From Styela clava (taxonomy: Eukaryota > Chordata > Ascidiacea > Stolidobranchia > Styelidae): 64,000 bases of DNA. Positions 7,799-57,335 of the stretch are shown here, piece by piece. The notes below the pieces were generated by a model. The model did no database searches. It saw nothing but the letters and a program-made list of their open reading frames with translations, and was not told where the DNA came from. The stretch covers positions 13,149,001 to 13,213,000 of the forward strand of contig NC_135254.1 of NCBI RefSeq assembly GCF_964204865.1. Direction: 5' to 3'. Numbering within the stretch: position 1 is the first letter of the stretch; every line of letters begins with the position of its first letter. The position numbers and the translations under genes are program-made.

Positions 7799-10700
7799 CT
7801 AGTTGCATAGTAAAAAGTTCACAATCCTGGCGAGGATATAACAATATATAGGTGCTCCCAGTGAGAAAAGTTTGCTAGTGGCAGATCCTGAAAATACAAA
7901 ATATCAGTAATCTCAACTCATTGAAACAAATCATGTAATTTGAAGTATCTCTTAGTCTTGATTAAATAAGAGCAGTAACTCCCGACCAAACCTAATATGC
8001 TAAGAACTGAGTAGAGTAAAATGTAGCTTTCTAAAAGACAGCATTCTTAAGATACAAATATATTATAAACACAAATTTGCATTAGAATAACATACCTGAG
8101 TTGGCATAAGTTTGAACATACGAGGATGCGTATGGTAGTCCGTTACCAGCCCTGTTATAAGGAAGAACAGTCGCATAGAATGTTCTGTTTTCCTCAACTT
8201 GGATAGTGCATTCACTCTCCTCAAATAGGAATGATAGCTTCTTTTTTGAATCCAAATCTTTCAGTAGCACCTGTGTAACATTATTACTCAAGATAAGAGA
8301 ATTAGTAGATTTGAAATGAAAAAATAAACTTCACATAAAAAAGCAGAAAATACCTTATAACCTAACAATGGTTCCTCTTCAGCTCTGCCTTCAGGAATAT
8401 TCCAAGATCCATGTATAATCGATCCAGTAACTGTGAAATGAACATTTGTGAGAGGGTACCGTGGAGGCAACTTCCAAGTATGGTGATCAATCGAAGTTGA
8501 TGTGCTCTTCCCTTTAATAAAAATTTCCTTATTAATGAATTTAATGACAGAGTTCTACTTACAATTTCATATTAAAAATAAATGCATCAGTGTATACAGA
8601 AAATATATATATATAGATTCTTACCCGACTTGTTTGCAGCTATCACTACAATTTTATACTTGGTATCTGGTTCTAAATCTTTAACGTCCAAAGCAGGTGG
8701 TTTAACTTCATAAAATTGCGAGCTGCCCTTAGATGTTAATATCACCTGAAAGTTTGAAAATTAAATGAATTTCATACAGATATTATAATATAATAATATT
8801 TATGTGTGCAATGGCCTAGCAGTTAAAGCCTTAGAGCAGTATTTCCCAAACTTTTTCGTTGAATTCCTTCCTTCTTCGTTTTAGTAACTTTATTCCTTCC
8901 TCAGTACGCATATAGACTCATTTCTTAAACTTTATTATTGTATCCTTAGCTAATGTTATGCGAAAGTCGCCCGTTTTTGAACAAAAATATAGAATATTAG
9001 TAATACTACAACGAACACAAATGAAAATTCCAACCCAATAGAATTCCTACCCAGCTGGAAAACGTTAGAAGATATCGGTGATTACTTCTGTGTGGCTTTG
9101 CTCGGAGCGTAATGTGTGAATAAGCAATGCAGAAAAAATCTAGGTCGACAAGACACTCGTACCACTATTATATGTTATATACCTCATAATGCTCAGCATT
9201 TTCAGAACCGTTCCATGTCACAAGGACAGATGATTTCCGGGAAGGAAATTTAGAATATAAATTTTCACAGATCAGATTTTCGATAGCATACGGTGGTGTC
9301 AGATTTTCTGAAACGAATACGATGAGTACAATAACAAGTGTGTAATGTATAGATGTCGGTGGCTGACCGAGTTTTTTCATATTGCCATAATGAAATATAG
9401 GGGCTCCCGAAGTATGCGAACCAAGATGGCGGACATCGGAATGTAATATGTGTACTAGGTTAGGGTTAGGCCATAATTTTAGGTATAAATACTACGAGAG
9501 GCTCTTGGCTAGTCTTCGAACTGATAATAGGACTAAAATAAGAAAAATTGGATAAAAATTATCGCCTAACCCTAACCTGTTACCCATGTTACGTTCCGAT
9601 GTCCGCCATCTTGGTTCGCATACTTCGGGAGCACCGAAATATATTTGTAACTGAATAGCAACACATACAGCATTGATCATACAGTAGTGTACATCCTTTC
9701 ACCCTCTTACCAAGGCGGGTGAATATGAAAGTTACCCCCTAGCCAAGTGAACTGCCTGCAAGATTTATTCACAAATTCAGGAAGTAATACAAGAATATAA
9801 TAATGTCATAGGAAATAATATCAACAACTTATATGGAGCTCGACAATTATATGAATGAACAGTGAATAAACATTGAAATATATCAACGAGAAAACAGAAA
9901 CAATATATGGTATCTATTCATATCAGTGATCACACATTTTGGTAATTTGCATTTTAAAATGTCGGGATTAAGTAATCAGAAAGTCTGTACAAATGAGAGG
10001 CCACTCCACTCAGAAATTAAGTCCATATATACATCGCTATTCTTAAATTTAATGAAAAATTGTTCCATTTGTTATTCAAATCATGGAAGCCAGGCACAAT
10101 TAAAAGTTATATGCAGTCATGATAAGATGACATAGCCTGCCCTGGGTCATTCTTATTCTGTAAGATTTTTTTAAAGAGGGATAAATCTACTTTTCTCTCC
10201 AAGATCCATGTTTATTTTAATAAGATAATTGGTTATATTTTTTATAAGTATGTGCTGTTTATTACTTGAGTAGAACCAAATTGGTGACATTCAAGAATTA
10301 GCTAATCATAACAATACTTACCAATAATTGGCTGTGCTGTTGTCACTGGGGCAGTCATGTTGTCTTGTGTTGCAGGGGTCTTTATGTCATCAGGTTCATC
10401 TCCTGGTGGATTCAATATAGCAGGAGGTTGTGAGCCGCCACCTTCAGCAACATTCCTATGAAATGAAAATTGGTAAATCCTGAAATTGACATTGTTTGGA
10501 TTTTTCATGATGATAATCCAAGTCAAAAATTCGGAAAGAAACAGGCAAACAGCACATAGTATTGACTATTGAGTTAACACAGCACAAGCTTTTGTTAATA
10601 AAGTTTCTTTTTTTTCAATCTGGAGTCGGTAGTTGTTTATTGGATGGCACAGAGTTTAATATCGAAATAGAAAATTTTATCTCTCGGTCCCGTTTTAGTT

Positions 10701-13739: not shown

Positions 13740-13769
13740 AACAGCATTAGTAGTGGTAGCCTAAAAGTC

Positions 13770-13950
13770 TCGTTGCGAGCAGCGCATTAGGAGCAGCGCA
13801 TTACGCACAGTGATGCCGCATTAGGAGCAGCGCATTGGGCACAGTGAGGCCGCATTAGGAGCAGCGCATTGGGCACAATGCGTGGTCGCATTAGGAGCAG
13901 CGCATTGGGCACAGTGGGGCCGCATCAGGAGTAGTGTATTACGCACAGTC
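13770..13950 (+). repeat. 34-bp satellite array, first block
   Basis: Tandem units follow the pattern GCATTAGGAGCAGCGCATTG + GGCACAGTGAGGCC with point variants (AATGCGTGGTC, GTGATGCC). The array ends in the flank CAGTCAGGATTGACAATTTACCCATCCATTTTACC, which also borders the arrays near 27.4 and 27.7 kb. The pairing of array and flank suggests that both belong to one dispersed element. Confidence 0.9.
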
Positions 13951-14244
13951 AGGATTGACAATTTACCCATCCATTTTACCATTGACGTTTTATAAACACC
14001 GATTTTCTTTATTTCCGTAACAATGATCAATCAACAAAATAGTAACAATGGAAATTTATGCGTCTGCTCAGACACTTCTTTTCTTCAGACAGATATTCAA
14101 GTATAGTTGTAAAAATTGCCTCGCATTCGTGCTTTTGCGTGTCATTTACCAGTTTGCAGTTGTGTTACTAAAAATATTTGTAAATCGAATAACTTAATTG
14201 TGATCATGCCTCCCGATGACAATAAGTTTAGCTGCAAAAATTAA

Positions 14245-14565
14245 TGACGCATTAGGAGCAGCGCATTACGCACAGTGAGGCCACATTAGAAGCAGCGCAT
14301 TGGGCACAGTGAGGCTGCATTAGGAGCAGCGCATTGGGCACAGTGAGGCCGCATTAGGAACAGCGCATTGGGCACAATGCGTGACCGCATTAGGAGCAGC
14401 GCATTGGGCACAGTGAGGCCGCATTAGAAGCAGCGCATTGGGCACAATGCGTGACCGCATTAGGAGCAGCGCGTTGGGCACAGTGATGCCGCATTAGGAG
14501 CAGCGCATTGGGCACAATGCGTGATCGAATTAGGAGCAGCGCATTGGGCACAATGCAACAACCTG
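14245..14565 (+). repeat. 34-bp satellite array, second block
   Basis: About nine units of the same 34-bp repeat as at 13770-13950. Variants with AATGCGTGACC alternate with variants carrying AGTGAGGCC. The 290 bp between the two blocks is ordinary AT-rich sequence. The repeat frame gives a spurious open reading frame on the minus strand. Confidence 0.9.
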
Positions 14566-16281: not shown

Positions 16282-16616
16282 TTACGGTACTTCAAATATC
16301 ACCATGAACTTAAACGCATACTTGGACGTTTCCGACGTTAATTTTTTTCCACCGATGAAAGAATGATCGTCGTGACAACGATCATTTCGATCCTCACCTG
16401 ATTGAATTTTCTCATATGGTTCAATCAGTTGACCAAACGTGACTGAGCAATACGATTGTAATCCATTGACAGTTGTAAACATCAATTTGATGTTGCGCTG
16501 ACACGTAAAAATGAAAAACCTGCTTGCGAATTTATCAACAACACAAGCGTGGGGCGGATTTATGTAAATGAAATACCATTGCGCACCATCCTTAATCTCA
16601 CCAACGACTTTATTTC
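16282..16616 (-). CDS. Candidate last exon of the transposase gene
   Basis: A strong acceptor (CTAATTTCAG) opens 111 codons to TAA 16282-16284: NKVVGEIKDGAQWYFIYINP at the start and SKYAFKFMVIFEVP at the end. A donor at 16934 (ATAC/GTAAAG), inside the last codons of the Ulp1-PHD-SprT frame, has the phase needed to join it and would remove a 315-nt intron. The domain was not recognised. It could instead be the last exon of another transcript whose upstream exons I did not find. Confidence 0.45.
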
Positions 16617-16917
16617 CTGAAATTAGATTTGGCGTTAAAACCTTTCTAAAAAAACAGTGCCAAGAAATCGAATTCTGTTGTTATAGGTGTACCCAGGAAT
16701 ATTCGCTATTAATTTACAAGGTGATATCATCTTTCCTTTATCCCTAATTGCAAATATATTTTCTTAACTTTGTTTATGTTTGATGTTTATGCGAAATAAA
16801 TACAACATCTTTGAAAATGATATTTTTTTAATTATACAACATCACATAACAACGAAATTCAAAATACCATTTAATAATATTTTTTTATAATCACTTATTG
16901 TCATAACATATATTATA

Positions 16918-18468
16918 TCAATTCTTTGCTTTACGTATATCTTTTAAGTTTATGCTCAGGTTTCTCAGCGCTGGAAGGAGGTTATTCTGATGCTCTTTAA
17001 TTTGATTGACCATACGGCGAGCCCTTTTTTGAAATTTAGGCCCGTGTTCGCTTCCACCTTCATGCATCAAAACTCCAGCAGCGTGGACCATTTCGTGTAT
17101 TATTATTTCCAATCTTTTCTCCATGCTTTTCTCCGTCGATTTAATAAAAACGATTAGGAAATCTTTTTTTGAGATAGAAGCCGGCGACAATGTGAAGGCA
17201 TCTACTGGCTTCTTTTTTGGGTATACCTCTTCATATGTAGTTTTTTGAACACAGGCAACAAATCCCTCACCCCTAGGGAAAGGAATATCTGGAAGAATAC
17301 TACAAATAGAGTTATATATCGAAACATATTTATCCGTTTCCTCTGGCTCGTTTTTTGACGATTTCATGAAAATGTTTCGTAAAGCTTCGAAATGTTTCCA
17401 CGTGGTTTCGCAGTCGTCGCAAGTCCGTTTCGAATCTTCTTCGTGGGTTACTTCAGGAGGTTCTCTTAGACATTTTCTGTGAAACCAAGTTCCACATGCC
17501 ATGCATTTGTGCATTTTTTCACCGTCGTCAGGCATACGGCAACAGCAAAAAATGTCGCAAAACCATGAAAATGTGGGGTTTTCAAACCCATTTCTCGATT
17601 CACAGCAATGTTGAAATAAAGCCTCCATCGAACGATTCTTGAAGCATTCAAGTAGAACATTGCGTATGTTTTGTTGATTAATTTGCCTTCCAACGGGGTC
17701 TACTCCGTGACTCAAAATTACGGCAAATGCAACGGCAAAAAGTCCGCAATCATCCCCACCCACTTGCTGAGTAACATTGGCAACTCTGGCCGCTAACCGA
17801 CTTTCTTGTAAATGGAGAAAACTGCACGCTGCTTGATCAACTATTAAGGGATATCGTATTTGATCTTCATCTTGATTTTGGTGATCTTTCGACGACTTCA
17901 CAACGCTCATTTCCTGTAGGCTGTCATAGATTGTATATTCTTTTTCTTGGGAAACGACATTGGATATGCAGATCCAATGATTATATCCCACATGCAGAAT
18001 TTGGATAAAATTTCGCACATTTTTCTTTCGTTGAAATCCGTGAGTTGGTCCAGTGATTACGTCGTCAAGTCCATTGAGGTCTGGACGCTTAAGAAGGTCC
18101 ATTGCCGCATTTATATGTTTATCACTGAGCCATGCTCCAGTTTTTAAATCATGGACATCGTTATTTGTCAGAGACAGATCATTCATCAACCCCATATCGC
18201 ATTCACTTTCGACCTCTTCGCGGTTTCTATCACCCGTCTGCACGCGTTTTTCTGTATTAGACGATGTTAAGATCACTTCCCCCGACTTGTTTTTTCCAAA
18301 GCAAACTCTTCCATGTTCGTCGTAATATACCTTTTCCGTGTAATCCCTTTTCATTTTTTGTACCCTGGCTTCATTAATTGCCTCATTATGGATGTCAATC
18401 ATTGAGCGGAAGAGGAATATGTGATTTTCAGCCTTCATCTGATTGAGGAATCGAGTATCATATTTCTT
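16918..18468 (-). CDS. Transposase C-terminal part: Ulp1-like protease, PHD finger, SprT-like metalloprotease
   Basis: The frame begins at KKYDTRFLNQ and completes the transposase core (MKAENHIFLFRSM). Counted from the ATG at 18438, residues about 98-275 match a C48/Ulp1 SUMO protease: GAWLSDKHINAAMDLL, catalytic His in NHWICISN, Asp in YTIYDSL, Gln in TQQVGG and the nucleophile in DDCGLFAVAFA. Residues about 293-345 form a PHD-type finger (CDIFCCCRMPDDGEKMHKCM, then CGTWFHRKC and CDDC). Residues about 395-490 are SprT-like, with the HExxH zinc site in IIIHEMVHAAG and a third ligand candidate in GGSEHGPKF. The ATG overlaps the stop of the upstream frame (ATGA), which is a by-product of the frame break. 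TGA lies at 16918-16920, or the frame splices on at 16935. Confidence 0.75.
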   Translation of the reverse strand, partial: KKYDTRFLNQMKAENHIFLFRSMIDIHNEAINEARVQKMKRDYTEKVYYDEHGRVCFGKNKSGEVILTSSNTEKRVQTGDRNREEVESECDMGLMNDLSLTNNDVHDLKTGAWLSDKHINAAMDLLKRPDLNGLDDVITGPTHGFQRKKNVRNFIQILHVGYNHWICISNVVSQEKEYTIYDSLQEMSVVKSSKDHQNQDEDQIRYPLIVDQAACSFLHLQESRLAARVANVTQQVGGDDCGLFAVAFAVILSHGVDPVGRQINQQNIRNVLLECFKNRSMEALFQHCCESRNGFENPTFSWFCDIFCCCRMPDDGEKMHKCMACGTWFHRKCLREPPEVTHEEDSKRTCDDCETTWKHFEALRNIFMKSSKNEPEETDKYVSIYNSICSILPDIPFPRGEGFVACVQKTTYEEVYPKKKPVDAFTLSPASISKKDFLIVFIKSTEKSMEKRLEIIIHEMVHAAGVLMHEGGSEHGPKFQKRARRMVNQIKEHQNNLLPALRNLSINLKDIRKAKN

Positions 18469-18470
18469 GG

Positions 18471-19895
18471 CGAAAATAGTTGTTCAGCCACCTGGGTGTT
18501 CAAAATTCCTCGCAGTTCAGCAATATGTCCAACTCGGCGTAGTATTTCTCGTTTCTTAGTAACGTTTGTTTGATGAAAAGTATCAAATAAACACATGCGA
18601 ACTGAGCTTCCGGTTATAGGATGTGCATTCGACGTCGAACTGGGATTTGCTCCGTCTTTAAACACCCATGGAAGTGATATTCTAAGCGAACCCTTATCAG
18701 CGAGACGAATGTTCTCATCTGTTGGTTCCACAACCATTCCATTGGAGGGGTGAAACATGCGATCCTTCCTTTTGTTGCCGTGAGCGACTACCAGCATGTT
18801 TGCCATATCGATGACTGTTATGTTGGGTTGGTTCTTCATAGATAGTAAAATATCGACAAAATCACGTGGGCTCTCTGCTCTCAGGACAAACTTAATGGCA
18901 TGAACAATGCCATGGGGACATACTGCTGAAGCCCAACCACCAGAAGAGCCCCATATCTTTTTGAAAGCTTTGTTGAATTTTTGATCATCCTTTTCCATTG
19001 TTTTAATAATTGCCAAGATGTTGTCAATTTTAGACCCACGTTGAGATATACCAAGCTTCTTTGCAAAGTCAGCAACTTCTTTCGGTTTAGACTGAGTTAG
19101 CAGTTCTACCATGCGCTCTTCTGACATTGCGCGACAATCTGTCTCTAAAACACTTGGGTGAGTGTTAGACGCTTTTCTATGTTCAGTGTTGTAAACCAGA
19201 TTAGAATGTCTTGTCTTGCAACCTATATAAGGAGCCCAAAACAACATGTTTGGAGACTCAGGTAGACACCTCACCTTGACCTGGCCAGGATAACCGAGCA
19301 TAAGAATATCGTTCTCTACACACGTCCAGAATTCATTGCAATCAACAAAGTCACTTTTTGTTTCATCATAATCTTCCGGAAGAGAATACGTTGAAATAGG
19401 ACATTTGAAGGCGATCTTTCGGTTTATGTCCATAATAAGTATGTGTGGATGGTACCCGCACAAGTTACAACTAAAGTCATATTTGTGATCACTTAGACAT
19501 TCAAAATGCATATAAGCATTTATTATTGTTTGCGAATCCAAACGCTGGCCAATATTGGATTCCATAACTTTAATTATACTTCCAATAGGCACATGCTCTT
19601 GTAGAGTTCCTCTTAAAAACAGGGCAATGTCATGCCCTAAAAAGAATATGTCGTTGAAATTGTGCACGCCATCGGTGTGTTCCTGATACCTATAACACAT
19701 TCCGCATCCAGGACATCTTCGGCAATAGGATTTATTGTTTTGAATTAACGTTTTCATGGTGAGTACTAACGCACGACTAGATATGAGTTCCGGCTCATTC
19801 AGTTTGAGATTGCAGTACAGACACTCAGTCTCGAATGGGTTAAAGTCTGTGGGAATTGCAGAAAGCGACAAGTTTTTCAGAGGTATTTTTTTTTT
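18471..19895 (-). CDS. Transposase catalytic core, DDE/RNase H-like
   Basis: About 475 codons without a convincing ATG of their own; the frame continues from the upstream part across the A10 run. After paired cysteines (CLYCNLKL, CRRCPGCGMCYRY) comes FSCNLCGYHPHILIMDINRK, where the Asp is a likely first catalytic residue. GGWASAVCPHGIVHAIKFVL and SPRDFVDILLSMKNQPNITV lead to IDMANML, a likely second Asp. NTQVAEQLFS near the end gives the likely Glu. Invertebrate proteins labelled HMGXB3-like share this set of motifs as I remember them, and KDZ/Zisupton transposases are the broader relatives. The three catalytic assignments are inference. The frame breaks after EQLFS. Confidence 0.7.
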
Positions 19896-20665
19896 GCCGT
19901 TAACAAATATTTGCACATCTTTATCAGTAACTCTTTGTCTGAAGGTGGGTACATTGATTGTTGATCGGAAACGTTTTCTGGTATTGAATCTTCTTGTACC
20001 GAGTCCGTTTTGAACCTAGAGAACAGGCCTGCTTGATGCAAGTACCAACCAGCTATGTGCTTATGCACGCATGATCGTCCTCGTTTACAGCCCTTACAGT
20101 CCATTGTTCCACATATTATATCGATTGTCACTACGACTCTATTTAGAATCGAATAATAGTGCTGTTCAGGTTCATATACTGAGAGGTGCCTATATTTCTC
20201 GCTTTCTTTTAAAACAGCAATCAAGGGTATCTTGTTGGTTATGGCCTGTTGGCGAAGAGTTATGCAAGCAGCCGTTGCCTCTTTCTTCATAGTTTTCAGA
20301 TCCCCACTTGGTGACAAGTCTTCTAAAAATCTATCCTCGAGAATGATTGGAAGAGCAACATCGTGATCTGCATGTACAGCTCGAAGATGTGGGCACAACG
20401 TGGCTTTTCTACCGCTGCGCCATGCAACGCGCATACATTCCATGCACTCCTTGTCTTCACAGAAAATCTTGGCATCATTTCCACATAGATATTTCTGGAC
20501 ATGAATGGGAAATCCCACACCACCATGAGATCTTTTTCTGACAAGATATATCCCGTTGATACTATCAACACACACACAGATTTCCAACATTTCTTTGCCA
20601 TGTACCTGCCTAACATGCCGATAGAGGCTATTCATGTGATAGGATTTTCCGCATTCAAGACATGC
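19886..20665 (-). CDS. Transposase second part: C2H2 finger and Cys/His cluster
   Basis: The frame enters with a third C2H2 finger (CLECGKSYHMNSLYRHVRQV, then H) that starts upstream of its first ATG at 20635, so this part is not an independent gene. Further Cys-rich motifs follow (CEDKECMECMRVAW). Near the C-terminal side lies a compact cluster, CKGCKRGRSCVHKHIAGWYL, similar to the SWIM-like or Cys/His modules found before the catalytic core in HMGXB3-like proteins. The frame ends just after an A10 run, where the downstream part continues in the -1 frame. Confidence 0.7.
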
Positions 20666-20681
20666 CTTTTTGGCAGGCGTT

Positions 20682-21176
20682 TTACGATGAGTGAACGGGC
20701 GTTTTTTTTACCTGCTTCGTTGTATGGTCGCTGGTAATTTCGATTTTGCTACCTTCAAAATCTATTTTGGTTTCCACCGTTTTTAAAATCTCATCCTTCG
20801 TTACTTGTGCTGATCTTGTGTCACTTTGAGTAGTATGCTCATTGAAATGTTGTCGAAGATTCTCAGGGAGACGACTTTTGTACGGACATTGTGAGCAGTG
20901 GTAATGTCCCTTTCTCCAACGCTTAGACTCATTGGTACATCTGCATTGTAGAAACGTAACATCTCCAATTACTATAGACCATTTCTGGTGAACATCTTGA
21001 AAATGACGATGGCACATTGATGGAGTTGTAAACGTTTTTTGGCATAGTAAACAATGTCTGTGTTTATTATGCATTACACTCATTTTTTTATGCGAATTTT
21101 GAGGACAATTTTCTTTGTTGCAAATTATAAAACAAGATTTCTCGGCGTCAGACACATTCCTTGTAAAACTATCCAT
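20682..21176 (-). CDS. Transposase N-terminal part: C2H2 zinc fingers
   Basis: The ATG at 21176 opens 164 codons. An ATTTCCAG acceptor 30-40 bp upstream suggests a spliced 5' leader. Visible fingers are HCLLCQKTFTTPSMCHRHFQ (residues about 41-64, ending DVH) and HCSQCPYKSRLPENLRQHFN (about 92-115). A Cys/His cluster (CFIICNKENC) lies near residue 15. These are likely DNA-binding modules that would recognise the element ends. The frame stops 3' of an A8 run. The segment after CAG/GTAAAA at 20711 could be a 46-nt intron ending at 20666, which would join in frame to the next part (KACLECGKSYH). Confidence 0.7.
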   Translation of the reverse strand: MDSFTRNVSDAEKSCFIICNKENCPQNSHKKMSVMHNKHRHCLLCQKTFTTPSMCHRHFQDVHQKWSIVIGDVTFLQCRCTNESKRWRKGHYHCSQCPYKSRLPENLRQHFNEHTTQSDTRSAQVTKDEILKTVETKIDFEGSKIEITSDHTTKQVKKTPVHSS

Positions 21177-27360: not shown

Positions 27361-27422
27361 CAATCGTTGCTCGACATTATAGATTCCATAAATAATGGTA
27401 AAATGGATGGGTAAAGTGTCAA

Positions 27423-27625
27423 TGCTGACTGTGCATAATGCGCTGCTCCTAATACGACTATGCATTGTGCCAAATGCGCTGCTCCTAATGCGACCTCACT
27501 ATGCCCAATGCGCTGCTCCTAATGCGACCACGCATTGTGCCCAATGCGCTGCTCCATATGCGGCCTCACTGTGTGTAATGCGCTGCTCCTAATGCGGCCT
27601 CACTGTGCTCAATGCGCTCATAATA
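27423..27625 (-). repeat. 34-bp satellite array, third block
   Basis: Same unit as at 13770-13950 but in the opposite orientation (GCGCTGCTCCTAATGCG). On its left is the conserved flank GGTAAAATGGATGGGTAAAG, the inverse of the flank at 13946-13990. Confidence 0.9.
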
Positions 27626-27739
27626 TGGTGCTCTCAAAGAGCAAATTTTTCACTATTGCTACTATCTAAAAGTCTAGTCTGGCTTGTCATTATAGATTCC
27701 ATAAACAATGGTAAAATGGATGGATGAATTGTCAATCCT

Positions 27740-27890
27740 GACTGTGTTCAATGCGCTGCTCCTAATGCGATCTCGCATTGTGCGCAATGCGCTGCTCCTA
27801 ATGCGGCTTCACTGTGCCCAATGCGCTGCTCCTAATGCAGCCTCACTGTGCGTAATGCGCTGCTCCTAATGCGCTGCGCGCAATGAGACC
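27740..27890 (-). repeat. 34-bp satellite array, fourth block
   Basis: A further reverse-orientation array, again preceded by the conserved flank (GGTAAAATGGATGGATGAAT near 27712). With 27423-27625 it forms a tandem pair of flank-plus-array modules. Confidence 0.9.
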
Positions 27891-27944
27891 TTTAGGCTAC
27901 CAACCCCTCTCAGCAACAGGGGTGATAACTTTTTTGTGGCTTTG

Positions 27945-32119: not shown

Positions 32120-33840
32120 TTTATTTATTAAAAACAAACTTAAAAAGTAGAGGCCATTTTCGCCGTAAGAATAACGTAGATTCTGAAACAAAAAAGGCTT
32201 AGGTTCTAGTTGTGTGGAACACTTCAGGTAATCTTCTTTAATGGGAAATAATCAAATCGAATGCCTCTTGTGCGGAAGGGTGTGCTGCTAGGCTTTGAAA
32301 ATTGACTAAATTAGCTTTTTTCGCTATACGTAATTTTTCAAAATAAGGCCATTTTCGCCATAAGAATAACGTAGATTCTAAAATAAAAAAGGCTTAGGTT
32401 TTATTTGTGTGGCAAACTTCAGGTAAACCTCTTTAACATGAAAGAATCAAATCGAATGCCTCTTGTGCGGAAGGGTATGCTGCTAGGCTTTGAAAATTGA
32501 CTAAATAAGCCTATTTCGCTATATGTTATTTTTCCAAATAAGGTCATTTTCGCTATGAGAATACCCCAGATTCTAAAATAAAAAAGGCTTAGCTTCTAGT
32601 TGTGTGGCAAACTTCAGGTAAACCTCTTTAACATGAAATAATCAAATCGAATGCGTCTTGTGCGGAAGGGTGTGCTGCTAGGCTTTGGAAATTGACTAAA
32701 TTAGCTTTTTTCGCTATACGTAATTTTTCAAAATAAGGCCACTTTCGCCATAAGAATAACGTAGCTTCTAAAATGAAAAAGGCTTAGGTTCTAATTGTAG
32801 GAAAAACTTCAGGTAAACCTCTTTAACGTGAAATAATCAAATCGAATGCCTCTTGTGCGGAAGGGTGTGCTGCTAGGCTTTGAAAATTAACTAAATAAGC
32901 TTATTTCGCTATATGTAATTTTTCCAAATAAGGTCATTTTCGCTATGAGAATACCCCAGATTCTAAAATAAAAAAGGCTTAGGTTCTAGTTGTGTGGCAA
33001 ACATCAGGTAAACTCCTTTAACATAAAAGAATCAAATCGAATGCCTCTTGTGCGGATGAGTGTGCTGCTAGGCTTTGAAAAATGACTAAATTTTCTTTTT
33101 TTGCTATACGTAGTTTTTCCAATTAAGGCCATTTTCGCCATAAGAATAACGTAGATTCTAAAATAAAAAAGGCTTAGCTTCTAGTTGTGTGGCAAACTTC
33201 AGGTTAACTTCTTCAACATAAAAGAATCAAATCGAATGCCTCTCGTGCGGAAGGGTGTGCTGCTAGGCTTTGAAAATTGACTAAATTAGCTTTTTTCGCT
33301 ATACGTAATTTTCCAAATAAGGTCATTTTCGCTATGAGAATACCCCAGATTCTAAAATAAAAAAGGCTTAGGTTCTAGTTGTGTGGCAAACATCAGGTAA
33401 ACTTCTTTAACATGAAATAATCAAATCGAATGCGTCTTGTGCGGAAGGGTGTGATGCTAGGCTTTGAAAATTGACTAAATTAGCTTTTTTCGCTATACGT
33501 AATTTTTCAAAATAAGGCCATTTTCGCCATAAGAATAACGTAGATTCTAAAATAAAAAAGGCTTAGCTTCTAGTTGTGTGGCAAACTTCAGGTAAACTTC
33601 TTTAACATAAAAGAATCAAATCGAATGCCTCTTGTGCGGAAGGGTGTGCTGCTAGGCTTTGAAATTTGACTAAATTAGCTTTTTTCGCTATACGTAATTT
33701 TCCCAAATAAGGCCATTTTCGCTATGAGAATATCCCATATTCTAAAATAAAAAAGGCTTAGGTTCTAGTTGTGTGGCAAACTTCAGATAAACTTCTTTAA
33801 CATAAAATAATCAAATCGAATGCCTCTTGTGCGGAGAGTG
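32120..33840 (+). repeat. ~195-bp satellite array, plus orientation
   Basis: About nine monomers, landmarked by TCAAATCGAATGCCTCTTGT at ~195-bp spacing (near 32252, 32447, 32642, 32837, 33032 and so on). Two monomer types alternate: one with GCCATAAGAATAACGTAG, the other with GCTATGAGAATACCCCAG. This gives a ~390-bp dimer in this block. Confidence 0.95.
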
Positions 33841-35044
33841 TGCTGCAGGGATTTGAAAGTTGCCAAAATTAGCTTTTTTGGCTTTTGTAAATTGCATAAT
33901 TTTGTTTGTACCATTTTTATAAAATTATCGTGCATTAATGACACGATTGCACATAATTCTGGAAATTTGTCATCTCTTGAATAAAAAATTAATATTTCGC
34001 GCCACCAATATAGAAGAGACGTTATGCTGATTTTCAAAATATCCAAATTACGATATAACGATAATGTACGACATATAATAACCTGACTTCTGATTTCAGC
34101 GCCAGTGAGACATATTGAAACAAAACAATTTTTACGTTCTGTTTATTGCATGTGTTGAAGAATTTGCTTTATACTACAAAATGCATTTGAAACTTCTTAA
34201 ATTACTAAGACATATTATAATGAAGTTTAACGTTTGTTACGTAATACAATACACAGTTTGAAACGAAGTAAAGCACTTTTACGGCTACGAAATGTTGTAA
34301 TTTAGTAGGCTGGTTTTGAAATATTTTTAAAGTTATACAAAAATGCTCGGGGCTCTTGGTTGAATTAACACTTTAGCAAAATAAGCAGCGCGCATAAAGC
34401 ATCACGGAATGGGCACCATATAAATTTTTATCGGTATCACAGTGTTTAATAATGTAAATCGAGTTGGTCAGACGATTTGGACCTCAACTCAATGGCTCGG
34501 TTGATATTGCTTATTTCTCTTAGTTCGCGTACCATCTTGCACTTCTGTATAAATGTTTGCAGGCATGAGAAGTATTTCCAAAAAATGTCACATAAATTGA
34601 ACATAACTTAGCTTTTAATTAGCAGTTATTACCGAAACCTATGCAGGTGACATGGAACACTCGTTTCGTTATATTTTCAAGCTTATATGAATACGTAATC
34701 TAACATTTTTTGTCAAAATATTTGTCCTGATCAATTTTATCAGCCGAGTATATTTAATTTCGACAACGTACTATGACAAATGAAACTGCATAGGCGATCA
34801 AACCGCCGGGATGCTCTCCACTCTGTATCCTAAGTTGCCGTCAAATATATTTGAATTTACTGCTTATCGTGATGTATTTCTTCCACAGCCTGTCTACAAA
34901 CTTAATCATTGTTGTCTGTGTGGAATTTAGGACTCGCCCATGTTTTACGCCATCACCCTTCAATAAGCACAAAACTGTCATATCACCCTTCAATGAGCAC
35001 AAAAACGAGATTATACGCACCGCTGCGCAAAATTAGAAGAAGGT
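33841..35044. repeat. Segmental duplication, copy 1
   Basis: About 1.2 kb of non-satellite DNA nearly identical to 45418-46620. The offset is 11,579 bp, dropping to 11,576 after a 3-bp difference near 34760. The similarity extends left into the last satellite monomers and right into TTGCTACTAGCTTCACAGTGG. Short ORFs are shared by both copies (for example MDILKISITSLLYWW on the minus strand) but show no recognisable domain. Confidence 0.9.
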
Positions 35045-35106: not shown

Positions 35107-35384
35107 TTTGACCTTTGTGTGCGGCGAAGCGGAAAGGTTAATATTTATGGCAGAAATGGAGGCGTGTCAGAATCTACACCCGAAAAAATGAAGATGAACG
35201 AAATTAGCATACTATTATGGGAAATATGTTTATAATTTAGGAAAAATAACAATTATATAGCAAAAAATAAATAATAAAAGCTTGAAAAGGAATGAGAAAA
35301 CAAAAAAAAGGGGAAACGAATTTTATTTAACTTCCTTCGAAAAAGCAGATAAGCCAGATAATTTCAAATCCAAGCAAAAATCCC
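35107..35384. other. Spacer between inverted-repeat element and minus satellite array
   Basis: Purine-rich, ordinary sequence with no feature recognised. A short open frame (from 35282) runs into degenerate satellite and is not supported as coding. Confidence 0.4.
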
Positions 35385-38300
35385 TTCCGCGGGAGAGGCA
35401 TTCGATTTCATTATTTATTAATAAAGAGGTTTATGTTAATTTTTTCCCACAACTAGAACCTGAGTCTTTTTTTTTATTTTAGAATCTACGTTTTTCTCAT
35501 AGCGAAAATGACCTTATTTGGGAAAATTACGTATAACGAAAAAAGTTAAATCTAGTCAATTTTCAAAGTCCAGCAACACACCCTTCTGCACAAAAGACAT
35601 TCGATTTCATTATTTGTTATTAAAGAGGTTTACCTGAAGTTTTTCACTCAACTAGAACCTAAGCCTTTTTCATTTTAAAATCAAGGGTATTCTCATAGTG
35701 AATATGGCCTTGTTTGAAAAAAATACGTATATCGACAAAAGATAATTTAGTCAATTTGCAAAGCCCAGCTGCACACCCTTCCCCACAAGAGGCATTCGGT
35801 TTGATTATTTCCCATTAAAGAAGATTACCAGAAGTTTTTCACACAACTAGAACCTAAGCCTTTTTTATTTTAGAATCTGGGGTATTCTCATAGCGAAAAT
35901 GGCCTTATTTGGAAAAATTAGGTATAGCGAAAAAAGCTAATGTAGTCCATTTTCAAAGCCTAGCAGCACACTCTTCCGCACAAGAGGCATTCGATTTGAT
36001 TATTTCACGTTAAAGAGGTTTATCTGAAGTTTTTCACACAACTAGAACCTAAGTCTTTTTTATTTTAGAATCTACGTTATTCTTATGGCGAAAATGGCCT
36101 TATTTTGAAAAATTACGTATAGCGAAAAAAGCTAATTTAGTCAATTTTCAAAGCCTATCAGCACACCCTTCCGCACAAGAGGCATTCGATTTGATTATTT
36201 CATGTTAAAGAGGTTTACCTGAAGTTTGCCACACAACTAGAAGCTAAGCCTTTTTTATTTTAGAATCTGGGGTATTCTCATAGCGAAAATGGCCTTATTT
36301 GGAAAAAAACATATAGCGAAATAAGCTTAATTAGTCAATTTTCAAAGCCTAGCAGCACACCCTTCCGCACAAGAGGCATTCGATTTGATTATTTCATGTT
36401 AAAAAAGTTTACCTGAAGTTTGCCACACAAATAAAACCTAAGCCTTTTTTATTTTAGAATCTACGTTATTCTTATGGCGAAAATGGCCTTATTTGAATAA
36501 TTACGTATAGCGAAAAAAGCTAATTTAGTCAATTTTCAAAGCCTAGCAGCACACCCTTCCGCACAAGAGGCATTCGATTTGATTATTTCATGTTAAAGAG
36601 GTTTACCTGAAGTTTGCCACACAACTAGAACCTAAGCCTTTTTCATTTAGAATCTACGTTTTTCTCATGGCGAAAATGGCCCTAATTAAAAAAATTACGC
36701 ATAGCGAAAAAAGCTAATTTAGTCAATTTTGAAAGCCTAGCAGCACACCCTTCCGCACAAGAGGCATTCGATTTGATTATTTCCCATTAAAGAAGATTAC
36801 CTGAAGTTTTCCACACAACTAGAACCTAAGCCTTTTTTGTTTCAGAATCTACGTTATTCTTACGGCGAAAATGGCCTTATTTTGAAAAATTACGTATAGC
36901 AAAAAAAGCTAATTTAGTCAATTTTCAAAGCCTAGCAGCACACCCTTCCGCACAAGACGCATTCGATTTGATTATTTCATGTTAAAGAGGTTTACCTGAA
37001 GTTTGCCACACAACTAGAAGCTAAGCCTTTTTTATTTTAGAATCTGGGGTATTCTCATAGCGAAAATGGCCTTATTTGGAAAAATAACATATAGCGAAAT
37101 AAGCTTATTTAGTCAATTTTCAAAGCCTAGCAGCACACCCTTCCGCACAAGAGGCATTCGATTTGATTATTTCACGTTAAAGAGGTTTACCTGAAGTTTG
37201 CCACACAACTAGAAGCTAAGCCTTTTTTATTTTAGAATCTACGTTTTTCTCATGGCGAAAATGGCCTTATTTTGAAAAATTACGTATAGCGAAAAAAGCT
37301 AATCTAGTCAATTTTCAAAGCCTAGCAGCACACCCTTCCGCACAAGACGCATTCGATTTGATTATTTCATGTTAAAGAGGTTTACCTGAAGTTTGCCACA
37401 CAACTAGAAGCTAAGCCTTTTTTATTTTAGAATCTACGTTTTTCTCATGGCAAAAATGGCCCTAATTGAAAAAATTACGCATAGCGAAAAAAGCTAATTT
37501 AGTCAATTTTGAAAGCTTAACAGCACATCCTTCCGCACAAGAGGCATTCGATTTGATTATTTCATGTTAAAGTGGTTCACCTGAAGTTTGCCACACAAAT
37601 AAAACCTAAGCCTTTTTTATTTTAGAATCTGGGGTATTCTCATAGCGAAAATGACCTTATTTTGAAAAATAACATATAGCGAAAAAAGCTAATTTAGTCA
37701 ATTTTCAAAGCCTAGCAGCACACCCTTCCGCACAAGGGGCATTCGATTTGATTATTTCATGTTAAAGAGGTTTACCTGAAGTTTGCCACACAACTAGAAG
37801 CTAAGTCTTTTTTATTTTAGAATCTACGTTTTTCTCATGGCAAAAATGGCCCTAATTGAAAAAATTACGCATAGCGAAAAAAGCTAATTTAGTCAATTTT
37901 GAAAGCCTAGCAGCACACCCTTCCGCACAAGAGGCATTCGATTTGATTATTTCCTGTTAAAGAGGTTTACCTGAAGTTTGCCACACAACTAGAAGCTAAG
38001 CCTTTTTTATTTTAGAATCTGGGGTATTCTCATAGCGAAAATGGCCTTATTTGGAAAAATAACATATAGCGAAAAAAGCTAATTTAGTCAATTTTCAAAG
38101 CCTAGCAGCACACCCTTCCGCACAAGAGGCATTCGATTTGATTATTTCATGTTAAAGAGGTTTACCTGAAGTTTGCCACACAACTAGAACCTAAGCCTTT
38201 TTCATTTAGAATCTACGTTTTTCTCATGGCGAAAATGGCCCTAATTAAAAAAATTACGCATAGCGAAAAAAGCTAATTTAGTCAATTTTGAAAGCCTAGC

Positions 38301-40790
38301 AGCACACCCTTCCGCACAAGAGGCATTCGATTTGATTATTTCCCATTAAAGAAGATTACCTGAAGTTTTCCACACAACTAGAACCTAAGCCTTTTTTGTT
38401 TCAGAATCTACGTTATTCTTACGGCGAAAATGGCCTTATTTTGAAAAATTACGTATAGCAAAAAAAGTTAATTTAGTCAATTTTCAAAGCCTAGCAGCAC
38501 ACCCTTCCGCACAAGACGCATTAGATTTGATTATTTCATGTTAAAGAGGTTTACCTGAAGTTTGCCACACAACTAGAAGCTAAGCCTTTTTTATTTTAGA
38601 ATCTGGGGTATTCTCATAGCGAAAATGGCCTTATTTGGAAAAATAACATATAGCGAAATAAGCTTATTTAGTCAATTTTCAAAGCCTAGCAGCACACCCT
38701 TCCGCACAAGAGGCATTCGATTTGATTATTTCACGTTAAAAAGGTTTACCTGAAGTTTGCCACACAAATAAAACCTAAGCCTTTTTTATTTTAGAATCTA
38801 CGTTATTCTTATGGCGAAAATGGCCTTATTTTGAAAAATTACGTATAGCGAAAAAAGCTAATTTAGTCAATTTTGAAAGCCTAGCAGCACACCCTTCCGC
38901 ACAAGAGGCATTCGATTTGATTATTTCATGTTAAAGTGGTTTACCTGAAGTTTGCCACACAACTAGAAGCTAAGCCTTTTTTATTTTAGAATCTGGGGTA
39001 TTCTCATAGCGAAAATGACCTTATTTTGAAAAATAACATATAGCGAAAAAAGCTAATTTAGTCAATTTTCAAAGCCTAGCAGCACACCCTTCCGCACAAG
39101 AGGCATTCGATTTGATTATTTCATGTTAAAGAGGTTTACCTGAAGTTTGCCACACAACTAGAAGCTAAGCCTTTTTTATTTTAGAATCTACGTTTTTCTC
39201 ATGGCAAAAATGGCCCTAATTGAAAAAATTACGCATAGCGAAAAAAGCTAATTTAGTCAATTTTGAAAGCCTAGCAGCACACCCTTCCGCACAAGAGGCA
39301 TTCGATTTGATTCTTTCCTGTTAAAGAGGTTTACCTGAAGTTTGCCACACAACTAGAAGCTAAGCCTTTTTTATTTTAGAATCTACGTTTTTCTCATGGC
39401 AAAAATGGCCCTAATTGAAAAAATTACGCATAGCGAAAAAAGCTAATTTAGTCAATTTTGAAAGCCTAGCAGCACACCCTTCCGCACAAGAGGCATTCGA
39501 TTTGATTATTTCATGTTAAAGTGGTTTACCTGAAGTTTGCCACACAAATAAAACCTAAGCCTTTTTTATTTTAGAATCTGGGGTATTCTCATAGCGAAAA
39601 TGACCTTATTTTGAAAAATAACATATAGCGAAATAAGCTTATTTAGTCAATTTTCAAAGCCTAGCAGCACACCCTTCCGCACAAGAGGCATTCGATTTGA
39701 TTATTTCATGTTAAAGAGGTTTACCTGAAGTTTTCCACACAACTAGAACCTAAGCCTTTTTTATTTTAGAATCTACGTTTTTCTCATGGCAAAAATGGCC
39801 CTAATTGAAAAAATTACGCATAGCAAAAAAAGCTAATTTAGTCAATTTTGAAAGCCTAGCAGCACACCCTTCCGCACAAGAGGCATTCGATTTGATTATT
39901 TCATGTTAAAGTGGTTTACCTGAAGTTTGCCACACAAATAAAACCTAAGCCTTTTTTATTTTAGAATCTGGGGTATTCTCATAGCGAAAATGACCTTATT
40001 TGGAAAAATTACATATAGCGAAATAAGCTTATTTAGTCAATTTTCAAAGCCTAGCAGCACACCCTTCCGCACAAGAGGCATTCGATTTGATTATTTCACG
40101 TTAAAGAAGTTTACCTGAAGTTTTTCCTACAACTAGAACCTAAGCCTTTTTTATTTTAGAATCTACGGTATTCTTATGGCAAAAATGGCCTTATTTTGAA
40201 AAATTACGTATAGCGAAATAAGCTTATTTAGTCAATTTTCAAAGCCTAGCAGCACACCCTTCCGCACAAGAGGCATTCGATTTGATTATTTCATGTTAAA
40301 GAGGTTTACCTGAAGTTTTCCACACAAATAAAACCTAAGCCTTTTTTATTTTAGAATCTGGGGTATTCTCATAGCGAAAATGACCTTATTTGGAAAAATT
40401 ACATATAGCGAAATAAGCTAATTTAGTCAATTTTGAAAGCCTAGCAGCACACCCTTCCGCACAAGAGGCATTCGATTTGATTATTTCATGTTAAAAAGGT
40501 TTACCTGAAGTTTGCCACACAAATAAAACCTAAGCCTTTTTTATTTTAGAATCTACGTTATTCTTATGGCGAAAATGGCCTTATTTTGAAAAATTACGTA
40601 TAGCGAAATAAGCTTATTTAGTCAATTTTCAAAGCCTAGCAGCACACCCTTCCGCACAAGAGGCATTCGATTTGATTATTTCACGTTAAAGAGGTTCACC
40701 TGAAGTTTTTCCTACAACTAGAACCTAAGCCTTTTTTGTTTTAGAATCTACGTTATTCTTATGGCGAAAATGGCCTTATTTTTTTCTGCG
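35385..40790 (-). repeat. ~195-bp satellite array, minus orientation, with higher-order structure
   Basis: About 28 monomers in the opposite orientation to 32120-33840. At least three monomer types recur, marked by CTACGTTATTCTTATGG, CTGGGGTATTCTCATAGC and CTACGTTTTTCTCATGG. A distinctive run of monomers (with TTTTTCATTTAGAATCTACG, then TTTTTTGTTTCAGAATCTAC and CCCATTAAAGAAGATTACC) occurs at about 36635-37200 and again at 38195-38760, exactly 1559 bp apart. That is an eight-monomer higher-order unit. The most left-hand monomers are the most diverged. Confidence 0.95.
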
Positions 40791-42950: not shown

Positions 42951-44448
42951 CATAGGTTCTCAAAGTGCTCCGTACGGAGCCTCAGGGCTCCGCGAGAGGA
43001 ACCCAGGGGCTCCGCGAGCTATTCGATTACTTTTCAAAATACTGACTAATTTTGTAACTGTTTAAAGAAGCAATAACAGCTTTGATAAAATCTGACAACA
43101 ATATGGCAAAGAGGCTGAATTAAAAAATGACATTATTTATAAGCAGGAGCGCAGCCAGGATTCTTAAGAGGGAGGTGGTTCAAAATTGGAATCGGAAATT
43201 ACCGCGCAACATTCTTCGCGATTAAAAAAAACGTATAACGAGATTTCTGTTGTGTGAAATATTCAATCCATGACCAATGCGAGCATTTAACGTGTCTCGT
43301 CGTAATGATGTAATTGTGCTCATCGTTACTCACGTTTGATTCGAGATTACTATTAGGATTCCTAAAATGAAAGAATATTATTCTGAAATAACATAAAATA
43401 TGTGATAAACTGCCAACTATCAATAAATTGGAGTCGTATTTTTGCGATATTGGGATTTGTCAAACTTGATTTGTTCTTTCGCACTTGAGATTATTTTTAA
43501 GCAAGATATCGCCCTTTAAAAAAACACAATGTCTGGGCAAAATACGAACAATTGAAATTTATTTTATTGCATTCGGCTCCGTCGGTAGTTTCAGAATGAA
43601 AAAGGGTACATCGCGGATCGCGCGCACAATTGATTGCGTGCGGCTCCGTCGGTAGTTTCAAAATGGGAAAAAAAGGTAGGCCTACATCGCGCGCACAATT
43701 GTACTTGTGTTTCGATTTCGCAGTTACTACAATGAAAACCTAACATAACACCAAATTTTGTGATTTGCAATGTCTATAAAAGCGTTTTCAATCCTAGGTG
43801 AGTCTGCTGAAACCAAACGTGTGATCTTCCATTTTAAGTTTTAGTTTTAATATTTCAGAATGCCGCTTTTTAATCAAGAAATTTGAGTTGCAGATTTATC
43901 TCTTTATTAATTATTATTTTTAGCATTTCGTCGCCGATGACTATAATATGGTAACATGTTTTTCACATTGAACTAATAATTCCCCACGAAAACACGAAAG
44001 CCATTAACGTCGTCATTGTGTAACAATACATGTAAATGCAGGGGGAAATTTGAATCAGGGAGAATAAACACCGGCGTGAAGATGTTTAAAGGTTCAAAAA
44101 CACGCCATGCTGAGGAAAAATCGGCGATTGTAACAAAATGCAATCGCGCACATTATTAGCGGCCTTTTAAGTCTTCCAAACATGTCAAAAGGGAAAAGAT
44201 TCGACCATGTTTGTCAAGTGTCAAATTTACAGCTTTAGTATATATAATTTATGTTTGAAATTTAGATTTTTTTATGACTTGTATTAACCCTTTCAAAAAA
44301 GGTTCAGCATTTAAATTGAGTAAAGTACTTTTAACTTGCTCAGGAATATTAATCCGAAAGTAACAATTTTAACATTTATTTTGGGGCTCCGTGAATAATA
44401 GTTAACCTTTTCAAGGGCTCCGCAACACCAAAAGTTTGAGAACCCCTG
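42951..44448. mobile_element. Non-autonomous hAT-type element, tandem copy 2
   Basis: The same element as at 41444-42942, in the same orientation, with scattered substitutions and small indels. It shares the middle CTCTAGGC (42943-42950) with copy 1 and has a third CTCTAGGC at 44449-44456. Many differences from copy 1 indicate that the tandem is not very recent, or that the two copies came from different sources. Confidence 0.9.
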
Positions 44449-44456
44449 CTCTAGGC

Positions 44457-45417
44457 TTTGAAATTTGACTAAATTAGCTTTTTTCGCTATACGTAATTTT
44501 CCCAAATAAGGTCATTTTCGCTATGAGAATACCCCAGATTCTAAAATAAAAAAGGCTTAGGTTCTAGTTGTGTGGCAAACTTCAGGTAAACCTCTTTAAC
44601 ATGAAATAATCAAATCGAATGCGTCTTATGCGGAAGGGTGTGCTGCTAGGCTTTGGAAATTGACTAAATTAGCTTTTTTCGCTATACGTAATTTTTCAAA
44701 ATAAGGCCATTTTCGCCAAAAGAATAACGTAGATTCTAAAATAAAAAAGGCTTAGGTTCTAGTTGTAGGAAAAACTTCAGGTAAACCTCTTTAACGTGAA
44801 ATAATCAAATCGAATGCCTCTTGTGCGGAAGGATGTGCTGCTAGGCTTTGAAAATTGACTAAATAAGCTTATTTCGCTATAAGTAATTTTTCAAAATAAG
44901 GCCATTTTCGCCATAAGAATAACGTAGATTCTAAAATGAAAAAGGCTTAGGTTCTAGTTGTAGGAAAAACTTCAGGTAAACCTCTTTAACGTGGAATAAT
45001 CAAATCGAATGCCTCTTGTGCGGAAGGGTGTGCTGCTAGGCTTTGAAAATTGACTAAATAAGCTTTTTTCGCTATACGTAATTTTTCAAAATAAGGCCAT
45101 TTTCGCCATAAGAATAACGTAGATTCTAAAATAAAAAAGGCTTAGGTTCTAGTTGTAGGAAAAACTTCAGGTAAACTTCTTTAACGGGAAATAATCAAAT
45201 CGAATGCCTCTTGTGCGGAAGGGTGTGCTGCTAGGCTTTGGAAATTGACTAAATTAGCTTTTTTCGCTATACGTAATTTTCCCAAATAAGGCCATTTTCG
45301 CTATGAGAATACCCCAGATTCTAAAATAAAAAAGGCTTAGGTTCTAGTTGTGTGGCAAACTTCAGATAAACTTCTTTAACATAAAATAATCAAATCGAAT
45401 GCCTCTTGTGCGGAGAG
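44457..45417 (+). repeat. ~195-bp satellite array, plus orientation, third block
   Basis: Five monomers, mostly of the ATAACGTAG type with two of the ACCCCAG type. The last monomer ends the same way as the first plus array (TTGTGCGGAGAGTGTGCTGC), then leads into the duplicated segment. Confidence 0.95.
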
Positions 45418-46620
45418 TGTGCTGCAGGGATTTGAAAGTTGCCAAAATTAGCTTTTTTGACTTTTGTAAATTGCATAATTTTGTTTGTACCATTTTTATA
45501 AAATTATCGTGTATTAATGACACGATTGCACATAATTCTGGAAATTTGTCATCTCTTGAATAAAAAATTAATATTTCGCGCCACCAATATAGAAGAGACG
45601 TTATGCTGATTTTCAAAATATCCAAATTACGATATAACGATAGTGTACGACATATAATAACCTGACTTCTGATTTCAGCGCCAGTGAGACATATTGAAAC
45701 AAAACAATTTTTACGTTCTGTTTATTGCATGTGTTGAAGAATTTGCTTTATACTACAAAATGCATTTGAAACTTCTTAAATTACTAAGACATATTATAAT
45801 GAAGTTTAACGTTTGTTACGTAATACAATACACAGTTTGAAACGAAGTAAAGCACTTTTACGGCTACGAAATGTTGTAATTTAGTAGGCTGGTTTTGAAA
45901 TATTTTTAAAGTTATACAAAAATGCTCGGGGCTCTTGGTTGAATTAACACTTTAGCAAAATAAGCAGCGCGCATAAAGCATCACGGAATGGGCACCATAT
46001 AAATTTTTATCGGTATCACAGTGTTTAATAATGTAAATCGAGTTGGTCAGACGATTTGGACCTCAACTCAATGGCTCGGTTGATATTGCTTATTTCTCTT
46101 AGTTCGCGTACCATCTTGCACTTCTGTATAAATGTTTGCAGGCATGAGAAGTATTTCCAAAAAATGTCACATAAATTGAACATAACTTAGCTTTTAATTA
46201 GCAGTTATTACCGAAACCTATGCAGGTGACATGGAACACTCGTTTCGTTATATTTTCAAGCTTATATGAATACGTAATCTAACATTTTTTGTCAAAATAT
46301 TTGTCCTGATCAATTTTATCAGCCGAGTATATTTAATTTCGACGTACTATGACAAATGAAACTGCATAGGCGATCAAACCGCCGGGATGCTCTCCACTCT
46401 GTATCCTAAGTTGCCGTCAAATATATTTGAATTTACTGCTTATCGTGATGTATTTCTTCCACAGCCTGTCTACAAACTTAATCATTGTTCTCTGTGTGGA
46501 ATTTAGGACTCGCCCATGTTTTACGCCATCACCCTTCAATAAGCACAAAACTGTCATATCACCCTTCAATGAGCACAAAAACGAGATTATACGCACCGCT
46601 GCGCAAAATTAGAAGAAGGT
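45418..46620. repeat. Segmental duplication, copy 2
   Basis: Nearly identical to 33841-35044 in the same orientation. Few substitutions were noticed by eye and there is one 3-bp deletion (GACGTACT against GACAACGTACT). It ends directly in a longer version of the TTGCTACTAGC inverted-repeat element. Confidence 0.9.
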
Positions 46621-50400: not shown

Positions 50401-51210
50401 AAAATACCATATAGATTCCATTTCATTATGTCAGAACAACAGCAGCACGTTTTGACTTGGCCATATATAATACCAAATATAACGTGTATTCACAATTTTA
50501 TAAACAATGTACACGTAACATATTGTAAAAAGATTTTGTATTTTAACTAAATTTACTGGATAATTCATCAAACATCTTTTTTTTTGGACGTACATCAATA
50601 ATGAACGTTCATTAAACTTGGAACAAGTTGCAAATTGTATAAAACAATAAAAAAATGACTTACGCCCCATAGTAATTTTTTTTAATATCTCGAACATACC
50701 GTTTTTAGAGTGGCGATTTCCCCAAAACCGCCAATAAAGGCAGCACTACGACACATTCGAAGAAAAGCAGATACTCCATAGATTCGATTTTTATATGTCA
50801 GAACAGTAGCAACACGTTTTGACTTGGCCATATATAACACCAAACATAGCGTATAATTTTCAATTTTATTACCAATGTAGATGAAACATATTTAAAAACG
50901 GTTTGGTATCTCAACTAAATTTACTAGATAATTCATCAACTACTTTTCTCTCTTGGTCATACATCAAAACTGTACGTTCGTTGAACTTGGAATAAGTGGG
51001 CAAATCTTGAAATAACAAAAAATGATTTTACGCCCTCTTTTGGATTTTTTCCGGAATTTTCAAAAAAATATCGTGTTTGAAAGGGCGATTTCTCGAAAAC
51101 CGCCAATAAAGGCAGCACTACGACGCATTCGGAGAAAAGCGGATACCCTATAGATTTGATTTCATTATGTCACAACAGTAGCAGCACGTTTCGATTTGGC
51201 CATATATAAT
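47417..51210 (+). repeat. ~370-bp satellite array, plus orientation
   Basis: About ten monomers, landmarked by CCAATAAAGGCAGCACTACG at ~360-376-bp spacing (near 47687, 48061, 48435, 48814, 49173 and onwards). Other conserved blocks are CAGTAGCAGCACGTTTTGAC, TTGGCCATATATAATACCAA and TACGCCCTCTTGTGGAT. Near 49375-49460 a 40-bp piece (AGTATTTCAACTAAATTTAC) is locally triplicated. ORFs here are repeats of one another. Confidence 0.95.
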
Positions 51211-51215
51211 ACCAA

Positions 51216-56800: not shown

Positions 56801-57335
56801 GCTATGTTTGGTATTATATATGGCTAAGTAAAAACGTTCTGCTATTGTTCTGACATAATGAAATCAAATCTATAAGGTATCTGCTTTTCTCCGAATGTGT
56901 CGTAGTGCTGCCTTTATTGGCGGTTTTTGAAAAATCGACCTTTCAAAAACGATAATTTCGTGAAATTTATTAAAGAATCCACAAGAGTGCGTAATTTTTT
57001 TTTTGGTATTTTAGACTTTCCTCAACTTATTCTAAGTTTAATGAAGTGCATTATTGTTGTGTGACAAAGAGGAAAATATCTTCTTTGATTAACTATCTAG
57101 TAAATTTAGTTGAAATACAAAATCAGTTTTAAATTTGTTGTATATACATTGTGCATAAAATTGAAAATTATACGCTATGTTTAGTATTATATATGGCCAA
57201 GTCAAAACGTGCTGAGACTGTTCTGACATAATGAAATCGAATCTTTGAGGTTTCTACTTTTCACCAATGGTGTTGCAATGCTGCCTTTATTGGAGGTTTT
57301 CATGAAACGACCGTCCTAAACGACGAAAATTCAGT
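53801..57335 (-). repeat. ~370-bp satellite array, minus orientation
   Basis: About ten monomers inverted relative to 47417-53800: TGCTGCCTTTATTGGCGG, ATATATGGCCAAGTCAAAAC, ACACGCTATGTTTGGTATTA. Together with the plus array it forms a ~10-kb imperfect palindrome centred near 53.8 kb. The last monomer (57180-57335) is the most diverged. Confidence 0.95.

Follow-up and report, generated by a model that had tools for sequence, protein, structure and literature searches.

A transposase with a Ulp1, PHD and SprT-like tail in the ascidian Styela clava: might a mobile element clear its own complex from DNA?

Little is understood, to our knowledge, of how animal cells dismantle long-lived transposase-DNA complexes, and it is against this background that a gene of the ascidian Styela clava raises a question: what would a transposase do with a SUMO-protease-like domain, a PHD finger and a SprT-like metalloprotease, all carried on its own tail? 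The gene lies on the minus strand of a 64,000-nucleotide stretch of contig NC_135254.1 (the window, with positions counted from its first letter). A sequence-only reading had taken it for a mobile-element protein joining these domains head to tail. That view is supported, because neither of the tests set against it, a host-gene origin of the tail or a lack of profile hits, refuted it: profile searches of the frames brought Peptidase_C48 and CxC4 above their Pfam cut-offs, with SprT and PHD matched below theirs. We tentatively propose, at slightly less than even confidence, that the window holds a copy of a DDE transposon from the CxC4/HMGXB3-type branch, linked to the KDZ (Kyakuja-Dileera-Zisupton) transposases, whose Ulp1-PHD-SprT tail would dock on chromatin, strip SUMO and clear away its own complex.

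The first step is to establish that there is a single protein. Four open reading frames (ORFs) cover it on the minus strand, at 20682-21176, 19877-20635, 18435-19916 and 16918-18438, and they assemble into four pieces of 1,421 codons with 0 internal stops, the joints between pieces being of our choosing. What had been described as four frames is thus a single protein whose frame breaks three times, near 20,705, 19,890 and 18,475, the first two times in A-runs; because of these breaks the copy is not intact as assembled, and it is best described as slightly broken and inactive in that state. The part that matters most for the argument is unbroken: from 18483 down to the stop at 16918, a frame of 521 codons carries the last segment of the transposase followed by Ulp1, PHD and SprT, and relatives have the same order. 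The lower limit of 16282 given earlier has to be given up, as the protein ends at 16918; the 132-aa ORF at 16282-16680, considered as a further part of the element, had no Pfam match at E<=0.1 and was rejected. The short motifs picked out by the sequence-only reading (IMDIN, IDMANML, EQLFS, the Ulp1 H-D-Q-C set and HEMVHA) do lie where it placed them and are conserved in relatives.

The tail ends in its SprT-like domain (16921..17346), with HEMVH at 17097-17083 and a third His at 17046-17044. The earlier assignment to SprT falls a hair short of the Pfam cut-off in the scan of the window ORFs (25.5 bits vs 25.6), but reaches 27.6 bits when the segment is scanned alone, and the residues speak for it. 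All ten segments aligned (the window and nine relatives, omitting P0004, which has HExxH without the third His) match PF10263 at E<=1; the relatives share 12-28% identity with the window, and only four columns, H, E, H and H, never vary. Seven of these nine relatives (P0010, P0011, P0013, P0016, P0017, P0019 and P0022) were found through the transposase core alone, so this conservation was not selected by the search. Counted over the occupied rows of a wider, 25-row alignment, as are the residue fractions below, the same columns stand at H 13/15, E 13/14, H 11/13 and H 12/16, the misses being P0004 and rows without a SprT match. Among solved structures the best profile match is human SPRTN, over SPRTN residues 41-155 only. 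SPRTN (Spartan) and GCNA/ACRC have the SprT fold with HExxH and a third His, as the window does; in SPRTN, which also has parts that bind PCNA, p97 and ubiquitin, a zinc-binding domain follows. By eye, no Cys cluster follows SprT in the window or in eight of the nine aligned relatives, P0005 being the exception, and because no zinc-binding domain is seen there we call the domain SprT, but not SPRTN; it differs from SPRTN, too, in being fused to a transposase. In PMC9097270, DNA is described as activating SPRTN, which also degrades itself, and SUMO as targeting GCNA.

Ahead of it stands the Ulp1/SENP domain (17623..18207), matched by Peptidase_C48 at 27.3 bits (cut-off 20.7) in the window ORFs and complete in its catalytic set on the Ulp1 fold (H154, D172, Q224 and C231 of ORF 16918-18438). 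These residues are kept at H 17/21, D 20/20, Q 16/18 and C 16/19, the misses being spread over P0015, P0018, P0020, P0021, P0023 and P0028. By its predicted fold the domain matches SENP, and viral proteases of the same fold with lower Z; from the SENP/Ulp1 SUMO proteases it differs in forming part of a transposase. The linkers that precede it run from 53 to 572 residues (23 roughly measured), and six of the 23 contain a SUMO-interacting-motif-like (SIM-like) word, against a shuffle mean of 0.85, none of 2,000 shuffles reaching six. This test was exploratory, the motif having been noticed first and tested afterwards; P0024 was dropped from the 24 rows as its linker start was not found, the linker ends are approximate, and one word in P0019 straddles the cut. 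Outside the linkers the motif occurs in 4/23 proteins (P0003, P0016, P0019 and P0029); in the window copy it is not present.

Between the two proteases lies the PHD-type finger (17410..17547). The window segment by itself does not carry the assignment (17.8 bits, under the Pfam cut-off of 24), but its C4HC3 ligands are present and the profile of the family alignment leads to readers of methylated H3K4: PHF2 (1.4e-10), Spp1 (1.6e-9) and BPTF (1.6e-8). The window has F, M and W where PHF2 has Y, M and W, at three positions that we take to be the aromatic cage; Tyr or Phe is found there in 12/18 rows, Met in 15/18 and Trp in 16/21, and a part of the misses come from rows that lack a PHD. A finger of the H3K4me3 type works with a transposase-derived recombinase in RAG2, as a domain of a partner protein rather than of the transposase itself, and the RAG transposase family differs from that of the window. 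In PMC11844651 the RAG PHD is described as inhibiting target binding, an inhibition that H3K4me3 peptides relieve.

To which family does the transposase belong? Its N-terminal piece (20708..21176, in ORF 20682-21176) has C2H2-type fingers recognised by their spacing, and the second piece (19888..20704, in frame 20707-19880) has a further C2H2 finger and a SWIM-like motif (20098-20063). The C2H2 fingers of the earlier reading can be seen by eye, but none has a Pfam match in the window ORFs; N-termini resembling that of the window are visible in P0010, P0011, P0013 and P0014. In the SWIM-like motif the first Cys, the third Cys and the His are kept in 16/16 rows reaching this part; at the second Cys position of CxC the 15 relatives have Cys and the window has Gly, followed directly by a Cys, and this change counts against an intact window copy. 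A cysteine cluster N-terminal to the core, already recognised from the letters, proves to be CxC4 (PF18717; 19542..19847, 27.2 bits vs a cut-off of 26.9), matched by 12/21 aligned members at E<=5. The core (18467..19466), RNase H-like by prediction, has its D, D and E at 19430-19428, 18809-18807 and 18485-18483, conserved at 17/17, 22/22 and 21/23, and includes a SAP-like helical insert (18942..19154). Directly after the second catalytic Asp, in IDMANMLVVAHGN (18806-18790, minus strand), the window carries an extra residue compared with the aligned relatives, an in-frame difference that may be a further sign of decay.

The CxC cluster, the SWIM-like motif and the D-D-E core are common to this family, to KDZ and to HMGXB3. 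A family-profile search, which scored the 8,000 candidates with the most words in common and is no full census, gave 32 proteins and matched vertebrate HMGXB3, in records named HMG domain-containing protein 3, at E ~1e-20 to 1e-13. The KDZ transposase domain itself (PF18758) finds no match among the window ORFs at E<=1, and is not among the 25 of 49 families listed for 21 members; the single HMGXB3 protein scanned, P0041, has no match to it at E<=0.05 either, so that the model may not extend to the CxC4/HMGXB3-type branch. Foldseek with the core gave 0 matches at E<=0.001.

The history of the tail can be followed in the relatives. Used as a query, the 506-aa ORF returned nine proteins, the nearest being an uncharacterised Styela clava protein (57% identical across 65% of the ORF) whose record stops within the PHD. 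With the core alone (composite residues 540-960, free of any Ulp1-PHD-SprT tail) 20 proteins were found, eight of which have a SprT-like match at E<=0.05 (P0002, P0010, P0011, P0013, P0016, P0017, P0019 and P0022; P0011, P0013 and P0017 reach the Pfam cut-off). All eight have a C48 match ahead of SprT (below cut-off in P0013 and P0022) and a PHD between the two, by Pfam in seven and by motif in P0011. The sea cucumbers Holothuria leucospilota (P0016) and Apostichopus japonicus (P0019) are among them; P0022, labelled as a bacterial metagenome-assembled genome of Sedimenticola, is likely host contamination. The other 12 comprise two models ending earlier (P0012, P0014), three proteins with a PHD and no SprT (P0015, P0018, P0021), the fish and acorn worm proteins P0023-P0028 (P0028 with a C48 match), and P0020 of the crinoid Antedon mediterranea, which joins the same transposase type to an OTU domain (48.9 bits) with no C48 match. 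When all 57 proteins were scanned for the SprT signature by motif (Pfam scans took in 8 of the 29 new ones from the profile search), nine had it and the returned HMGXB3 and fish proteins did not, a difference from the family of the window. Some of these sequences stand for clusters of near-identical ones (175 members for P0012, 50 for P0017, 41 for P0010), sizes that would fit a multi-copy element and for which several assemblies may account.

In the best core tree (34 rows, excluding those with <220 core residues and including only three HMGXB3-type hits) the Ulp1-PHD-SprT tail occurs in two branches, that of the sea cucumbers and the 11-row branch of the window (support 100/99); two tail changes are counted on this tree, and the well-supported forks alone force one. 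P0015, P0018, P0021 and P0029, a sister lineage, have kept the PHD and a C-terminal Ulp1 that has lost its Cys, without SprT, and they carry an N-terminal Ulp1-like domain resembling the yeast Ulp1 first half (profile E 7.6e-7); there H, D, Q and C, residues that we assign as catalytic, are invariant in all four. A protease for ubiquitin-like tags persists through changes of tail, be it as OTU or as the N-terminal domain. P0021 has, besides, a weak F-box match. Ulp1-like and PHD-like stretches occur also in P0007 and P0008, with no such transposase core by eye, and in P0008 the C-terminal domain of a retroviral integrase is weakly matched (E 0.05); the Ulp1-PHD pair may travel among unrelated elements. 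An NCBIfam scan of five proteins gave nothing useful, and none of the relatives' DNA was confirmed in the genomic and viral contig collections searched.

Transposases with riders of this kind have been described before. In the platyfish Zisupton the rider reported is an F-box (PMC12062965, quoting Bohne 2012), and Ginger1 transposases end in Ulp1 or OTU, one listed family having Ulp1 with PHD; their authors suggest repair factors as possible targets of Ulp1 and OTU (PMC2836005). The exchange between Ulp1 and OTU in Ginger1 is mirrored here by P0020; the core of Ginger1 is Gypsy-integrase-like, with an H2C2 finger and a GPY/F motif, whereas that of the window groups with the KDZ/HMGXB3 branch. 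In PMC2836005 the word SprT occurs 0 times, and among the papers listed by searches on KDZ/Zisupton/HMGXB3, on SPRTN with transposase and on transposons with SprT, Ulp1 or PHD, judged mostly by title, none was seen to describe a transposase carrying SprT, an earlier mention being possible. The earlier remark that no described element is known with this exact set holds within that literature, but Ulp1, Ulp1 with PHD, and OTU were already in print on Ginger1; within the papers searched, SprT on a transposase would be the new addition.

We may now ask how such a protein would work. The C2H2, SWIM-like, CxC4 and SAP-like modules would bind the element ends, and the PHD finger would dock the complex on open chromatin methylated at H3K4. 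Ulp1 would strip SUMO from the transposase, or from surrounding silencing or repair proteins that depend on SUMO, and SprT, activated by DNA as SPRTN is, would cleave protein held on DNA, chiefly its own transposase, opening the joined ends to repair. Because the SPRTN zinc-binding domain is not seen, activation by DNA would need the DNA-binding parts of the transposase itself. The earlier suggestion, a kit for dismantling the transposase-DNA complex or for escaping SUMO-dependent silencing, fits the conserved catalytic residues and the predicted SPRTN and SENP folds. In its most specific form (a SPRTN-type protease, gated by DNA and, via Ulp1, by SUMO, that removes the transposase after joining, PHD limiting the process to H3K4-methylated chromatin) the proposal is possible, if on the doubtful side.

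Other accounts of the tail must be weighed with it. It might serve escape from silencing only, Ulp1 removing SUMO from heterochromatin factors, PHD holding on to active chromatin and SprT degrading host silencing or repair proteins; in C. elegans, silencing directed by Argonaute requires SUMOylation of HDAC1 (PMC8131101), and the several forms of ubiquitin-like protease kept within the family, together with the SIM-like words before Ulp1 in some members, would suit this account, which is nevertheless rather unlikely, leaving a SPRTN-type protease and its position in cis on the transposase unexplained. Proteases of related fold from viruses and from Maverick/Polinton elements process polyproteins, and Ulp1 or SprT might in the same way cut a long product into its functional parts. 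The length of this multidomain protein, the variable linkers ahead of Ulp1 and the lower-scoring viral folds all point in that direction, to an idea that we regard as plainly unlikely.

That the tail is a mere passenger, or the whole a host gene domesticated from a transposon, would agree with the broken frame of the window copy and with the kinship between the transposase and vertebrate HMGXB3, which we take to be a host gene. It is very improbable in view of ten diverged sequences whose sole invariant SprT columns are the four zinc-binding or catalytic residues, of the clusters of near-identical sequences, and of a tail that the best core tree places in two of its branches, though the well-supported forks alone would allow a single group. 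As for an artefact, by which SprT or Ulp1 would come from an adjoining host gene, nothing more than the upstream frame breaks could be pleaded for it, and its likelihood is close to nil: the common, unbroken frame and the same order in other records refute it.

For the ends of the element, repeat and TIR/TSD (terminal inverted repeat/target-site duplication) scans gave nothing clearly above chance (two candidates in the flanks, where each of five shuffles had none or one). A minisatellite of 34/70 bp, its flanks shared in part, lies at 13754-13984 and 14248-14557 (plus strand) and at 27394-27618 and 27706-27902 (minus strand), inverted across the transposase gene; it is either a dispersed repeat or a set of subterminal repeats of a larger (14-kb) element. 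Further along are arrays of a 195-bp satellite (32151-33883, 35382-40781 and 44447-45458, of which the middle array runs opposite to the other two) and of a ~370-bp satellite (47632-51215 and 53815-57300, mutually inverted). On the other side, on the minus strand, are an exon of a kinesin-associated protein (KAP) gene (2295-2618, 68.2 bits), probably a host gene, and a weak match, under cut-off, to a GH85 endohexosaminidase C-terminal domain (9168-9491, 17.6 bits).

The exchange of Ulp1, Ulp1-like and OTU domains within the family suggests a lasting need for control of ubiquitin-like tags in transposition. The presence of a SPRTN-type protease and a SUMO-protease-like domain on the transposase itself makes the dismantling of its complex with DNA directly testable. 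If the proposal is true, a mobile element would have recruited the module with which the cell clears its crosslinks, and would do in cis, by clearing itself, what other elements leave to host factors.

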